From: Candidatus Bipolaricaulota bacterium
Lineage (GTDB): Bacteria; Bipolaricaulota; Bipolaricaulia; Bipolaricaulales; Bipolaricaulaceae
Assembly (NCBI GenBank): GCA_937921255.1
Contig: CAKZSO010000003.1
Span: forward strand, 1-64,000
Direction of reading: 5' to 3'
DNA: 64,000 nucleotides
The position numbers and the translations under genes were made by a program. Positions within the stretch are counted from its first letter, which is position 1. Every line of letters begins with the position of its first letter. A model generated the notes under the pieces. It saw only the letters and a list, made by a program, of their open reading frames with translations. It made no database searches and was not told where the DNA came from. Positions 53,628 to 63,392 of the stretch are shown here, one piece after another.

Positions 53628-55586
53628 ATGGCTAGGCCGCAGGTGACCTCCAATCTTCTTCGGTGGCTGGCGATCGGCGCCCTGCTTCCCCTCCTCTCGT
53701 GCTCCCGGCCCCCCTCCGAGGAGAGGGTTCCCTGCTCGGTGACTGTCCAACCCGGGGCGTCGATCCAGGCCGCGCTCGACGGGGCGCCCCCCGGTGCGGT
53801 GATCTGCCTCCCCGCCGGCACCTGGACGGAAAACCTCGACGTGACCAAGCCCGTCACCCTGCGCGGGGCGGGGCCAGCCCGGACCGTGATCCGCGGGAAG
53901 GACCTGGCCCGCCCCGTGCTCGCCGTAGCATCACCCGAAGGGACGGTCATCCTCGCCGGGATCGCGCTCGCCGGTGCCACCGGTGCCTGCTCCGAGCCCG
54001 CCGGCTGCGCCCACGGCCTCTTGGTGTCAGGACGGGCGACGGTCGCGGCCGAGCGGTGTACGTTCTCCGGAAACACGGGAAGTGGCGTGGCCGTTCGGGA
54101 CCAGGCGCGCGTGGAGCTGCGTGACTCCACCCTCACGGGCAACATCGGCTACGGGCTGCACGTGCAGGACCGGGGGGAGGTCGTTCTGACCTCCGTCACC
54201 GTGTCCGAGAACCGCAGCACCGGGATCTGGATCGCCGATCAGGCCCACCTCAGAATCGCCTCCTCCACCGTAACGAAGAGCGAGGGCCATGGCCTGTGGG
54301 TCCGCGGCGAAAGCCGCCTCACCGCCACCGATTCAGTCGTCTCGTCGTGCGCGGGCCATGGGCTTTGGGTGCAGGACAGGGCATCGGCCGATCTCTCGGG
54401 CTGCCAGATCACCAACCATCGGGACAGCGGATTGTGGGTCGAGCACAGTGCCCAGGTCGCCCTCTCCTCGTGTACGATCGCGCAGACGTGGGATGGAGCC
54501 GTAGCAAGAAACAACGCTCGGCTGCAAGTCCAGAATTCGACAGTCTCCGCCGTTCGCTGGGACGGGATCAAGCTCCAGGGGACGGCCGCGGGGTCGGTCG
54601 TCGGGTCCGCGCTCCGCGGTGGACGGGGCTCGGGCATCCACGTGGGAGGGGCAGCGCAAGTCGAGATCCGCGACAACCGCATCGAGTCCTGGATCGCCCA
54701 CGGGGTCCTCGGCCTCTCCCCGATCCCGCCCACCGGCGACGGAAACCGGTTCGCGAACAACGGGGTGGACCTGTCGGGGAACGTCCCCAGCACCCTCCGC
54801 GTCCCCCTTTCCCTCCCTGACCAGGAGGTCGTACGGTTCCCGAACCGAGACCACACCACGCTTCAGCAGGCCGTGGACGCCGTCCGGCCGGGGGGACGGT
54901 TGATCCTCGCCGAGGGGATCTACACCGGCGGGATCACGCTCGGCAAACCGCTCTGGATCGAATCCGAAGGGATTGTCCTCCTCACCGCGAAGTCAGGCGG
55001 CGAGTCCCCGGTCCTATCCCTGATCGACGGGGCCGACCTCGTGATGTCCGGCGTCGCCCTGGGGTACGGCTCGGAGGGAATCGTCCTCGGGGGGAATGCC
55101 CGGGCCGCCCTCACCGACTGCGTGATCTCCGACAACGTCCACGGCGTCCACGCCACGGGCACAGCGCGTGTGACCCTCGTCCGGTGCAGCCTGTCCCGCA
55201 ACCAGCAGGGAGGCGTATGGCTATGGGAAAACGTCCACGGGGACATCCGCGAGACCTCGTTCACCTCCAACGGACTGTGCGGGATCGGCCTCGGCGGTTC
55301 GTCCACCACCTCGATCGAACGGTGCCGGATCACCGAGAGTGGCTGGACAGCGGGGGTTGCCGTGCGCGATTCGGCCCAGGTCCACCTGGTGGGGAACACG
55401 ATCGTGGGGAACTACGGGGTCGGCGTGGCCCTGTACCACGAGCTGTGCGTGGGACCCCGTTACGTTTTCACCGGCCGGGTGACGGGGGGAGGGAACGTGT
55501 TCGCCAACAACAACAAGGGCCCCGTCTGCCCGGCCGAGCTGGCGTTCCTATGGGGCGAGGGTGGCGAGCTCGACTTCCGCCGCTAG
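53628..55586 (+). CDS. right-handed parallel beta-helix lipoprotein
   Basis: Lipobox LLPLLSC; repeated coils such as GHGLWVRGESRLTATDSVVSS / GHGLWVQDRASADLSGCQITN. Confidence 0.85.
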   Translation: MARPQVTSNLLRWLAIGALLPLLSCSRPPSEERVPCSVTVQPGASIQAALDGAPPGAVICLPAGTWTENLDVTKPVTLRGAGPARTVIRGKDLARPVLAVASPEGTVILAGIALAGATGACSEPAGCAHGLLVSGRATVAAERCTFSGNTGSGVAVRDQARVELRDSTLTGNIGYGLHVQDRGEVVLTSVTVSENRSTGIWIADQAHLRIASSTVTKSEGHGLWVRGESRLTATDSVVSSCAGHGLWVQDRASADLSGCQITNHRDSGLWVEHSAQVALSSCTIAQTWDGAVARNNARLQVQNSTVSAVRWDGIKLQGTAAGSVVGSALRGGRGSGIHVGGAAQVEIRDNRIESWIAHGVLGLSPIPPTGDGNRFANNGVDLSGNVPSTLRVPLSLPDQEVVRFPNRDHTTLQQAVDAVRPGGRLILAEGIYTGGITLGKPLWIESEGIVLLTAKSGGESPVLSLIDGADLVMSGVALGYGSEGIVLGGNARAALTDCVISDNVHGVHATGTARVTLVRCSLSRNQQGGVWLWENVHGDIRETSFTSNGLCGIGLGGSSTTSIERCRITESGWTAGVAVRDSAQVHLVGNTIVGNYGVGVALYHELCVGPRYVFTGRVTGGGNVFANNNKGPVCPAELAFLWGEGGELDFRR

Positions 55587-59759: not shown

Positions 59760-61469
59760 ATGGGCCGGGCGTGGCTGGCGGTGCTCCTCGTGGGGTTGGG
59801 ACTGGGGTTGTTTGCCCTCATCCTCGCCCTTGTGGGGCCCGACGCCGTGTGGCAGCAGGTCCAGACCCTCGGTCCCGTCGGGTTCCTGGCGATGGTGGGA
59901 AACGACGCCGCCGCAACCCTGTTCTGGGTCGCGAGCTGGGCGGTCCTCCTCCACGCGTTCAGGGTTCGCCTGCGTTTCCGCGAGGTAGCGGGGATCGGTG
60001 TAGCCGGGTTCGCCCTCTCCTACCTCACCCCGGTGGCCTACGCCGGCGGGGAACCCGTCCGGGCGTGGCTCGGGTCCCGCAAGAGCGGCGCGACCCTGAC
60101 GACCCTGTTTGCGACCCTGTTCGTGGACCGCCTGCTCGCCGGGCTGAGCCTGGTTCTGTTTGCCGTGCTCGGGGGAGCGTTCACCCTGACCGGGACACAG
60201 TTCGCCCCCGCGGCGAAGGTCAAGATCGGGGCCGGCCTCCTCGTGGTGGCGACCGCGGTGGGGTTGGGGGTGCTCAGCTTCGCCCGCAACTACCACTGGC
60301 TATCGCGAATCGTGGCCTCGCTCGGGCGCCTCCGGCGGTCGTGGAAGTGGCCGGCGGCGTGGGGCGAGAGAGTCCACGCGATGGAGGACGAGATGCACGC
60401 GGCGTTCACCCGCCACCTCCCCCTCACCGCCCTCGCGTTCCTCCTTCAGCTGGCGAGCTTCTTCTGCACCTACCTGCGGCCCCAGCTGTTCTTCTACTTC
60501 ACCGAGGGGCGCCTGTTCTCTCTGGGCGAACTCGCGGTGTACTTCAACCTGAACGCGATCTTGACCACGCTCCTCTGGCTCACCCCGGCCGGGATGGGCA
60601 CCGCCGAAGGGGGGCGGGTAGGGATTCTCGGATTGGTGGGGATCTCGCCCCAGGGGGCGATGGCGTTCTCGCTCACGGTGCGGTTCCTCGAGCTCCTGCT
60701 CGTGGCGGGAGGGGTCATCTACCTGTCCCGGGAGGGGATGCTCTCGTTCCTCGGCCAGAAGCTCCGGCCAAGGCCAGGCGGGATCGGCGCGCGCCTCAGG
60801 GGCGCGCTCGGGCTCGCCCGGGGTGCGCTCGAGGTGGGGGTGCTCTACCTGTGGGCACTCGTTCCCCCCCGCTGGCGCGGCGCGATCTTCTCCCGCCGGT
60901 TCCGGACCCCAGACCCCTGGGACTACGCCACGAGCCCCTACGAGGCGGAGAAGTACAGGCGCACGCTCGGGATCCTCCCTCGGCAGGGCAGCCCGGACCG
61001 CCCGCCCTACGACCGGGTCCTCGAGATCGGGTGCGCGGAGGGCCGGTTTACCTGCCTTCTCGCCCAGGCCGGGGTGGGACGGATGGTCGTGGGGGTGGAC
61101 TTCGCTCCCGAGGCCATCGCCCGCGCGCGGGTCCACTGCCCCCGCCCGGACGTCGAGTTCGAGCTCCTGGACGTTACCACCCGCCTGCCAGATGGGGAGT
61201 TCGACCTCGTGTTCTGCTCGGAGATCCTCTACTACTTGGGGTCGCTGCGGAGGATCCGCGACCTCGCCCAGCGCCTCACCCCCAGACTCCAGCCCGGCGG
61301 GCACATCGTCCTTGTCGGCCCGTGGCCCGCGGGGTGGCTGTTCCACCGGCCGTTTCTCTCCCGTCCTGATCTGCGGATCGTCGGCGAACACCGGGAGCAG
61401 GGAGCACTCCGGCCCTACGTCATCACCTGCCTGGAACGGGCAGCCCGATCGGCCGGACCGGTGGAGTGA
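59760..61469 (+). CDS. fusion: UPF0104/LPG-synthase-TM-type flippase-like domain + NodS-like SAM methyltransferase
   Basis: Polytopic N-terminus (PVAYAGGEPVRAWLGSRKSG..LFVDR; TPAGMGTAEGGRVG) then DPWDYATSPYEAEKYRRTL...VLEIGCAEGRFTCLLA..VVGVDFAPEAI. Confidence 0.8.
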   Translation: MGRAWLAVLLVGLGLGLFALILALVGPDAVWQQVQTLGPVGFLAMVGNDAAATLFWVASWAVLLHAFRVRLRFREVAGIGVAGFALSYLTPVAYAGGEPVRAWLGSRKSGATLTTLFATLFVDRLLAGLSLVLFAVLGGAFTLTGTQFAPAAKVKIGAGLLVVATAVGLGVLSFARNYHWLSRIVASLGRLRRSWKWPAAWGERVHAMEDEMHAAFTRHLPLTALAFLLQLASFFCTYLRPQLFFYFTEGRLFSLGELAVYFNLNAILTTLLWLTPAGMGTAEGGRVGILGLVGISPQGAMAFSLTVRFLELLLVAGGVIYLSREGMLSFLGQKLRPRPGGIGARLRGALGLARGALEVGVLYLWALVPPRWRGAIFSRRFRTPDPWDYATSPYEAEKYRRTLGILPRQGSPDRPPYDRVLEIGCAEGRFTCLLAQAGVGRMVVGVDFAPEAIARARVHCPRPDVEFELLDVTTRLPDGEFDLVFCSEILYYLGSLRRIRDLAQRLTPRLQPGGHIVLVGPWPAGWLFHRPFLSRPDLRIVGEHREQGALRPYVITCLERAARSAGPVE

Positions 61470-62427
61470 ACACCGCGTAGAGCTCGTTGGGGCGGACAAA
61501 GCTCGCCAGAAACCGCCCGTTCGTGATCCACTGAGAGCTGTAGGCGCGGATCGCCCTGAGTTTCACCTCCATGAGCTCGTCGGTCAGGTCGTGGCTGTGC
61601 CACGTCCAGCTCCCGAGCGCGGCCGGCACGGTGAGCGACCGGTCGGTGGCCAACCGCCGGGGGGCCGGCCAGCTCGGGGCGTGGACGATGTACAGGCGAA
61701 GCCGCGGATCCTCGGGGAGATCCACCGCCGCCAGAGCCGCGAGCGTGAGCTGAACCGCGGCTCGGTGGTCGGGGTGGCCGTCCTCGGGGTGGGGCATGTA
61801 GATCACCGTGGGACTGAACCGGCGCAAGATCAGGGCCAGGTCGGCCACGAGGTCCTCCCCGCAGTACAGGGCGCGGGCGTTGAAGCTGTTCCGGTAAAAC
61901 GCGTGGTTCGCCTTCGTAAACGGGCTCGTGTACGGCTCCTCGCGCTTCCAGTGCTTGCCGAGAAGTGCCGTCAGCCCCCCGTCCGGGTAACCGAGGAACA
62001 GGACCGAACCCACCGGCACCCCCAAGACCCGGAGCGACGCGACCGCCTCCTTCTGGCGGCGGTACCCGAGGGCCCGGAAATCCTCGGCGCGGCGGAGGGG
62101 GTTGAGCGTGAACACGCTCTTGGCCGCCCGGTTGGCATCTCCGTTCGTGAGGAAGACCACCAGGACCTGGTGGCCCGTCGCCTTGAGGTGGGCGATCGTC
62201 CCCCCGAGGGCCAGAAGCTCGTCGTCAGGATGGGGAGCGATCACGATGACCCGCTCCACGCCAGGGAGCGGGGCGGGGACCTCGACCCGCGGCGGGGAAG
62301 GGACCCACCACAGGAAGAAGCTCAGGAACGGGTGGGGAACACCGGGGATGAACCCAAGCGCCACGGGGAGGAGAAGGATTCCCCCCGCAATCCACGTCCG
62401 CCGCGAAACCCGCCGTCTGCGCACCAC
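61423..62427 (-). CDS. membrane-anchored PIG-L family deacetylase
   Basis: N-terminal TM; VIVIAPHPDDELLALGGTIA; YMPHPEDGHPDHRAAVQL. Confidence 0.9.
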   Translation of the reverse strand: MVRRRRVSRRTWIAGGILLLPVALGFIPGVPHPFLSFFLWWVPSPPRVEVPAPLPGVERVIVIAPHPDDELLALGGTIAHLKATGHQVLVVFLTNGDANRAAKSVFTLNPLRRAEDFRALGYRRQKEAVASLRVLGVPVGSVLFLGYPDGGLTALLGKHWKREEPYTSPFTKANHAFYRNSFNARALYCGEDLVADLALILRRFSPTVIYMPHPEDGHPDHRAAVQLTLAALAAVDLPEDPRLRLYIVHAPSWPAPRRLATDRSLTVPAALGSWTWHSHDLTDELMEVKLRAIRAYSSQWITNGRFLASFVRPNELYAVFTPPVRPIGLPVPGR

Positions 62428-62501: not shown

Positions 62502-63392
62502 ATGGACCGGACAATCGGCGTGGACGTCGGCGGTACCCAGACCCGGGTCGCAGCGGTCGAGGGAGGGCACCTCCGGGTCCGGCGGGCGTTCCCCACTCGA
62601 GGGATCCGCGAGGTCGAAGACGCTATTCGCGTGGTCCTGGCCGCGGCGGGCTGGCCCAAGCCCGGGACAATTGGGGTCGGAGCACCGGCCCCCCTCGACA
62701 TGCGCGCGGGGCGAATCCTCACCTGCCCAAACCTCCCGGGGTGGGAGAAGGTCGGGGTGCGCGAGGAGCTTGGGCGGGCGTTTGGGTGTCCGGTGTACCT
62801 CGCGAACGACGCCACGTGCGCGGCGATCGGCGAGCTCGCGTTCGGAGGGCGGGGCCGCGACTTCGTCTACGTGACCTGGTCCACGGGGATCGGCGGAGGG
62901 GTGGTCGCGGGGGGAGAGGTCGTGTGGGGAGCAACCGGGGCCGCGGGAGAGATCGGACACATCGTGCTCCAGGCGGAGGGACCTCCCTGCGCCTGCGGGA
63001 AGAAGGGGTGCCTGGAGGCGCTCGCCGGCGGGGCCTCGCTCGCCCGTCGGGGATCGGAGGCGCTCGGGGTTCCCCTATCCGCCCAGGACCTCGTCCGCCT
63101 CGCCCAAGCGGGGGATCCCGTTGCGAGAGACCTCGTCCTCACCGCATGTCAGGCCGTTGGCCAGGGCCTGGCGATCGTCCACGAGGTCCTCGAGCCCGAG
63201 CGGATCGTACTCGGCGGGGGGATCACCCGGTCGTGGGAGTTCCTCGGTCCCCACGTCCTCTTTGCCCTCCAGGGGATGGCCCGCACGCCCCCCCAGGTCA
63301 CGCTGACCCCGCTCGGCGACGACGCGGGGCTCCTCGGCGCAGCGGTCCTTCCCGCCTACATCCCCAACGAGTGGCGCGGCCCGCAGACCTAG
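62502..63392 (+). CDS. ROK-family sugar kinase / glucokinase-like
   Basis: IGVDVGGTQTRVA; GAAGEIGHIVLQAEGPPCACGKKGCLEALAGG. Confidence 0.92.
   Translation: MDRTIGVDVGGTQTRVAAVEGGHLRVRRAFPTRGIREVEDAIRVVLAAAGWPKPGTIGVGAPAPLDMRAGRILTCPNLPGWEKVGVREELGRAFGCPVYLANDATCAAIGELAFGGRGRDFVYVTWSTGIGGGVVAGGEVVWGATGAAGEIGHIVLQAEGPPCACGKKGCLEALAGGASLARRGSEALGVPLSAQDLVRLAQAGDPVARDLVLTACQAVGQGLAIVHEVLEPERIVLGGGITRSWEFLGPHVLFALQGMARTPPQVTLTPLGDDAGLLGAAVLPAYIPNEWRGPQT

Follow-up and report, generated by a model that had tools for sequence, protein, structure and literature searches.

The locus raises the question of whether two adjacent genes, one encoding a flippase-like membrane domain fused to a NodS-like methyltransferase and the other a membrane-anchored PIG-L/LmbE deacetylase, act together on an amino-sugar lipid or are merely neighbours. 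Both genes lie on contig C3 of a draft genome of 1.29 Mb, within a stretch of 64,000 nucleotides that we refer to as the window (Table 1). The initial annotation had described a single ORF that joins the two domains and overlaps a convergent PIG-L gene by 47 nt. Pfam matches to both domains bear out the fusion, and the overlap is exactly 47 nt, both stop codons counted, with the convergent arrangement present in 16 of 16 genomes. Among the orthologous loci of these 16 genomes the overlap spans 23–104 nt; because its length drifts, it is probably a side effect of tightly packed genes and not a signal in its own right. Next to the two genes we recognised no glycosyltransferase. A ROK-family sugar kinase, said to follow them, is indeed present at 62502–63392 (+ strand; Pfam E = 2.1e-57), beginning 74 nt from the PIG-L start and divergent from it. 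However, its linkage is limited to the window's genus and one further genus (G020), and no ROK gene was found adjoining PIG-L in the two other fusion-bearing genera where the flank is long enough; the kinase was therefore dropped as a member of the module.

Table 1. Features of the fusion/PIG-L locus (positions in the window)
Feature	Position	Strand	Details
Fusion gene: flippase-like membrane domain and NodS-like SAM methyltransferase	59760..61469	+	569 aa, ATG...TGA; ORF, Pfam, orthologues
LPG_synthase_TM (PF03706) domain	59790..60704	+	aa 11-315; Pfam E 1.4e-25; ~8-10 predicted membrane helices (AF2 model, hydropathy)
Fusion junction: hydrophobic helix and basic stretch	60783..60899	+	aa 342-380; AF2 helices 342-365, 370-380
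Class I SAM methyltransferase, NodS type	60894..61439	+	aa 379-560; motif I LEIGCAEG
Motif DPWxYxxSxYExxKYxxxLxILP in the methyltransferase	60912-60980	+	
Tail-to-tail overlap of fusion and PIG-L genes	61423..61469	.	47 nt
PIG-L/LmbE deacetylase, N-terminal membrane anchor	61423..62427	-	334 aa, GTG 62427 to TGA 61423
PIG-L catalytic domain	61735..62247	-	Pfam aa 61-231, E 3.2e-30; PHPDDE aa 65-70, HPDH aa 218-221
Arg-rich N-terminus and hydrophobic anchor of PIG-L, conserved GxPHP break	62290..62427	-	aa 1-46

A search of 60 genomes of relatives recovered full-length fusion orthologues (48–78% identity) that are open in 15 other genomes. The order of gyrA, the fusion and the convergent PIG-L gene is kept in all 16 genomes measured, which belong to four genera of Bipolaricaulota. 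Within the window's genus the fusion occurs in 10 of 12 genomes, the window's own counted; outside that genus it was found in three more genera of the family (G015 and G025; G020; and G022, G028, G030, G036 and others). Wherever the flank is visible, gyrA lies upstream and divergent with tyrS beyond, and at one locus (L052) a few genes intervene before gyrA. The concern that the fusion might be a frameshift or an assembly artefact is thus rejected by open, syntenic orthologues in close relatives. The split in one copy (G005) lies at contig ends, and the apparent in-frame TGA in some matches is only the natural stop, beyond which the match ran. As far as the collections searched show, the locus is restricted to Bipolaricaulota; no flippase fusion was found in plasmid records, in which no place covers 80% of the fusion.

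The synteny of PIG-L with the fusion, also expected from the initial annotation, stands wherever the fusion exists with both flanks visible, whereas three genomes depart from it. The sister genomes G004 and G007 (gyrA 97% identical) lack the fusion and retain PIG-L and the flanking genes, which looks like one loss. In G004 the gap between PIG-L and gyrA (L063 9997–10204) may still hold remnants of the methyltransferase 3′ end: weak matches in collinear position (E = 0.02 and 0.1) suggest decay after loss of the fusion. In G021, from a related genus, each half is a gene of its own; the two stand in tandem, in different frames, at the position beside gyrA that the fusion has in other genomes, and the anchored PIG-L is on another contig. 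PIG-L also sits elsewhere in G016. A second arrangement is found in G040, from another family, in which a free NodS-like methyltransferase gene lies 7 nt behind PIG-L on the same strand; in G072 and G073 a free methyltransferase and PIG-L are on different contigs. A right-handed beta-helix (NosD-like) protein with a lipobox-like N terminus is encoded at 53628–55586 (+ strand) in the window, syntenic next to tyrS–gyrA. The best genome-wide beta-helix match in G040 directly follows the PIG-L–methyltransferase operon, with a DsbA/thioredoxin-like part in the same ORF; an old linkage of the beta-helix gene with the pair is possible.

The membrane half of the fusion scores well above the cut-offs of both PF03706 (90.8 bits against 33.4) and TIGR00374 (72.0 bits against 43.2), and presumably translocates a lipid. 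The AlphaFold2 (AF2) model of the fusion has a mean pLDDT of 77.5 and was built on 11 sequences. Because the free-standing methyltransferases of G040 and G072 carry a hydrophobic N-terminal helix like that at the fusion junction, the junction helix probably belongs to the methyltransferase module, which suggests that this methyltransferase family works at the membrane surface.

The best Pfam family for the methyltransferase is NodS (PF05401; aa 379–517, E = 1.2e-14), with 55.1 bits against a gathering score of 24. It reaches 68.5 bits against the curated cut-off of 300 for the Nod-factor N-methyltransferase equivalog (NF041650), and we therefore call it NodS-like rather than NodS. Crystal structures of NodS (3ofk/3ofj) provide the five best PDB fold matches to the AF2 model (target TM-score 0.77–0.81), followed by a putative methyltransferase (4isc) and then a phosphatidylethanolamine N-methyltransferase (8ys9). 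A profile built from 16 orthologues likewise has NodS as its best solved relative (E = 3.9e-19). This match starts at profile position 375 and spans the segment DPWxYxxSxYExxKY, whereas nearly all other solved matches listed end before it; the segment is common to NodS, the fusion, and the Deinococcus and trifunctional enzymes described below. Sequence profile and fold thus agree on a NodS-like enzyme rather than one from an unrelated small-molecule family, and we would expect N- rather than O-methylation. In a tree of NodS-like domains, considered for the placement of these enzymes relative to the PIG-L-linked ones of Deinococcus, branches are long and only a few forks are supported.

The convergent gene product belongs to PF02585 (105.7 bits against a gathering score of 28.2) and retains the catalytic motifs (A/P)HPDD and HPDH, with residues H66, D68, D69, E70, H218, D220 and H221 invariant in 15 homologues. 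Its model matches the folds of MshB, teicoplanin deacetylase and diacetylchitobiose deacetylase, and it is predicted to de-N-acetylate an amino sugar. Scores are far below the BshB and MshB equivalog cut-offs (TIGR04001, 60.6 bits against 182.5; TIGR03445, 41.4 against 224.35). The first 11 residues contain 3–6 Lys/Arg in all 15 aligned homologues and are followed by one hydrophobic stretch, and the positive-inside rule accordingly predicts an extracytoplasmic catalytic domain. Relatives in G040 and G042 have a classic single N-terminal helix; those in family f5 have no membrane segment at all and look as if they were cytoplasmic. In the AF2 model of PIG-L, a low-confidence one built on nine close sequences (mean pLDDT 63), short helices span residues 9–23 and 35–40, and, given the conserved GxPHP break, a re-entrant, one-sided hairpin anchor is possible. 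PIG-L of G040 (L061 7933–9312) and of family f5 is extended at its C terminus by a further domain of ~120 aa that Pfam does not match.

We also examined co-occurrence across 100 genomes of the phylum, scoring the methyltransferase as present at E ≤ 1e-14 (26 genomes) and PIG-L at E ≤ 1e-12 (50 genomes). PIG-L is present in 25 of the 26 methyltransferase-bearing genomes compared with 25 of the 74 others, so that the methyltransferase nearly implies PIG-L and PIG-L does not imply the methyltransferase. In the one exception (G051) the methyltransferase match is weak and divergent. At the genus level, PIG-L occurs in 8 of 9 genera with the methyltransferase and 11 of 30 without it (Fisher P = 0.008, with no correction for phylogeny); taken by itself, the part of the phylum outside the window's family shows no significant association (P = 0.14). 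Families f4 and f6 show a perfect match of presence and absence, although the genomes are few (3 with both genes, 4 with neither).

Two ordinary methyl acceptors were considered. Phosphatidylserine decarboxylase was detected in 0 of 36 genomes, the window's included (the E. coli and B. subtilis controls were positive), so the canonical route to phosphatidylethanolamine appears to be missing; LpxC was detected in 0 of 60 genomes, with its positive control detected. Candidatus Bipolaricaulis anaerobius has been reported to have no lipopolysaccharide genes and possibly a simple diderm envelope (PMC6092417). Judged from gene content, both phosphatidylethanolamine and lipid A are weakened as candidates and seem unlikely acceptors, which leaves an amino sugar freed by PIG-L as the simplest candidate.

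We tentatively favour, at somewhat short of an even chance, a model in which an MprF-like protein N-methylates and exports an amino-sugar lipid deacetylated by PIG-L. The fusion would 'modify and flip' its lipid in the membrane as MprF does, with a NodS-type N-methyltransferase in place of the aminoacyl transferase. An amino sugar, GlcNAc or one like it, within a membrane glycolipid or a polyprenyl-linked sugar would lose its N-acetyl group to PIG-L; the freed amine would be methylated by the methyltransferase domain on the cytoplasmic side, where SAM is found, and the LPG_synthase_TM domain would carry the methylated product to the outer leaflet. We infer both the substrate and the order of these steps. 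The occurrence of the same partners in two arrangements within the phylum (the convergent fusion and the G040 operon) supports the model; the convergent orientation of the fusion and PIG-L genes, which are not co-transcribed, counts against it, as do the genomes G004, G007 and G021, the non-significant association outside the window's family, the failure to recognise a neighbouring glycosyltransferase, and NodS-like enzymes elsewhere (Nonomuraea) that have no deacetylase next to them. The deacetylation, N-methylation and translocation proposed in the initial annotation therefore gain from independent PIG-L/NodS-like pairs and from the undetected phosphatidylserine decarboxylase, and are called into question by a PIG-L topology that may be on the wrong side.

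This topology matters because a SAM enzyme must face the cytoplasm: with the PIG-L domain outside, the simple NodB–NodS order would break. The same glycolipid might instead be handled in the opposite order and from opposite sides, the fusion methylating and flipping it from inside and an outward-facing PIG-L deacetylating the finished glycan. The Arg-rich N terminus and single hydrophobic segment of all anchored orthologues aligned, and the classic helix of the G040 and G042 relatives, point in this direction. We nonetheless give it little credence: the family f5 relatives look cytoplasmic, the GxPHP break and the two short helices of the low-confidence model would permit a one-sided anchor, and N-methylation of Nod factors strictly needs prior deacetylation (PMC5080398). 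Comparably improbable is an MprF-like modification and flipping of an ordinary lipid amine such as phosphatidylethanolamine, with PIG-L as an unrelated neighbour. The pairing of a flippase domain with a C-terminal head-group enzyme is MprF architecture, and the solved relatives that come closest after NodS include N-methyltransferases of phosphoethanolamine and phosphatidylethanolamine; however, NodS is nearer by both profile and fold, no decarboxylase was detected in the 36 genomes, and the association with PIG-L is seen in two different gene arrangements.

A functional link may also be absent altogether, the two genes having separate envelope targets and being neighbours through a vertically inherited gyrA–tyrS region. 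Convergent orientation, a drifting overlap, the persistence of PIG-L in G004 and G007 after fusion loss and its location elsewhere in G021 and G016 all fit this explanation, as does the largely conserved synteny of the neighbouring gyrA, tyrS and beta-helix genes. It is unlikely in our judgement, though less so than the two preceding alternatives, because the methyltransferase rarely occurs without PIG-L (1 of 26, and that match divergent) and because the pair is operonic both in G040 and in unrelated phyla. A broader proposal is that Bipolaricaulota, which seem to have neither lipid A nor the canonical route to phosphatidylethanolamine, make an undescribed N-methylated amino-sugar membrane lipid by means of an MprF-like methyltransferase-flippase; this is possible, if rather doubtful. 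The favoured model, if right, would add a second enzyme chemistry to the principle by which one protein both makes and flips a head group, open a way into the membrane lipids of a phylum of which one described member is without lipopolysaccharide genes (PMC6092417), and give a function to the PIG-L/NodS-like pairs seen repeatedly in Deinococcus and alphaproteobacteria, for which we found no description.

These pairs came from plasmid records searched with the methyltransferase domain, and the neighbourhoods are those of the best matches, not a random sample. Genes for an acyl-CoA dehydrogenase, PIG-L, a NodS-like methyltransferase and a glycosyltransferase follow one another in this order in Deinococcus sp. 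NW-56, D. radiophilus, D. gobiensis, Deinococcus sp. AJ005 and Novosphingobium resinovorum; loci L081, L082, L093, L094 and L096 represent this recurring cluster, with an acyl-CoA dehydrogenase-like first gene. In D. radiodurans a helicase gene lies between PIG-L and the methyltransferase, and the NodS-like matches in Sphingobium and Nonomuraea have no deacetylase neighbour. Like the locus here, the plasmid clusters pair PIG-L with an adjacent NodS-like methyltransferase, which in them directly follows PIG-L; in contrast, the proteins are separate and soluble-looking, are encoded on the same strand with glycosyltransferase and acyl-CoA dehydrogenase partners, and include no flippase fusion. 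Our literature searches found no description of the Deinococcus and Novosphingobium clusters, and nothing on PIG-L with NodS or a flippase.

Among described deacetylases, MshB, BshB and the diacetylchitobiose enzymes share the fold and metal-site motifs of the PIG-L protein here, which differs in its N-terminal anchor and in falling far short of the BshB1 and MshB equivalogs. The rhizobial NodB/NodS system, in which nodS and nodB occur together (nodA, nodB, nodC and nodS are consecutive in Rhizobium etli), likewise couples a deacetylase with a PF05401 SAM methyltransferase, and NodS gives the best structural matches. NodB belongs to the polysaccharide deacetylases, a family different from PIG-L; here, by contrast, the deacetylase has the PIG-L fold, a membrane anchor and a convergent gene, a membrane domain is fused to the methyltransferase, and no nodA- or nodC-like neighbour was recognised at the locus. 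Proteins annotated as trifunctional NodC–NodS–NodB-like glycosyltransferase/SAM methyltransferase/polysaccharide deacetylases in Gloeothece and Sulfitobacter resemble the fusion in joining a NodS-like domain to partner functions of amino-sugar chemistry, but those partners are a glycosyltransferase and a deacetylase rather than a flippase-like membrane domain. MprF combines lipid head-group synthesis and translocation in one protein (PMC8131360). Like the fusion, it carries an LPG_synthase_TM membrane domain with a head-group-modifying enzyme behind it at the C-terminal end; unlike in MprF, the C-terminal domain of the fusion is a methyltransferase, and Pfam finds in the protein no aminoacyltransferase domain such as an aminoacyl-PG synthase would have. 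The locus is best read as uniting the MprF principle with chemistry of the NodS type.
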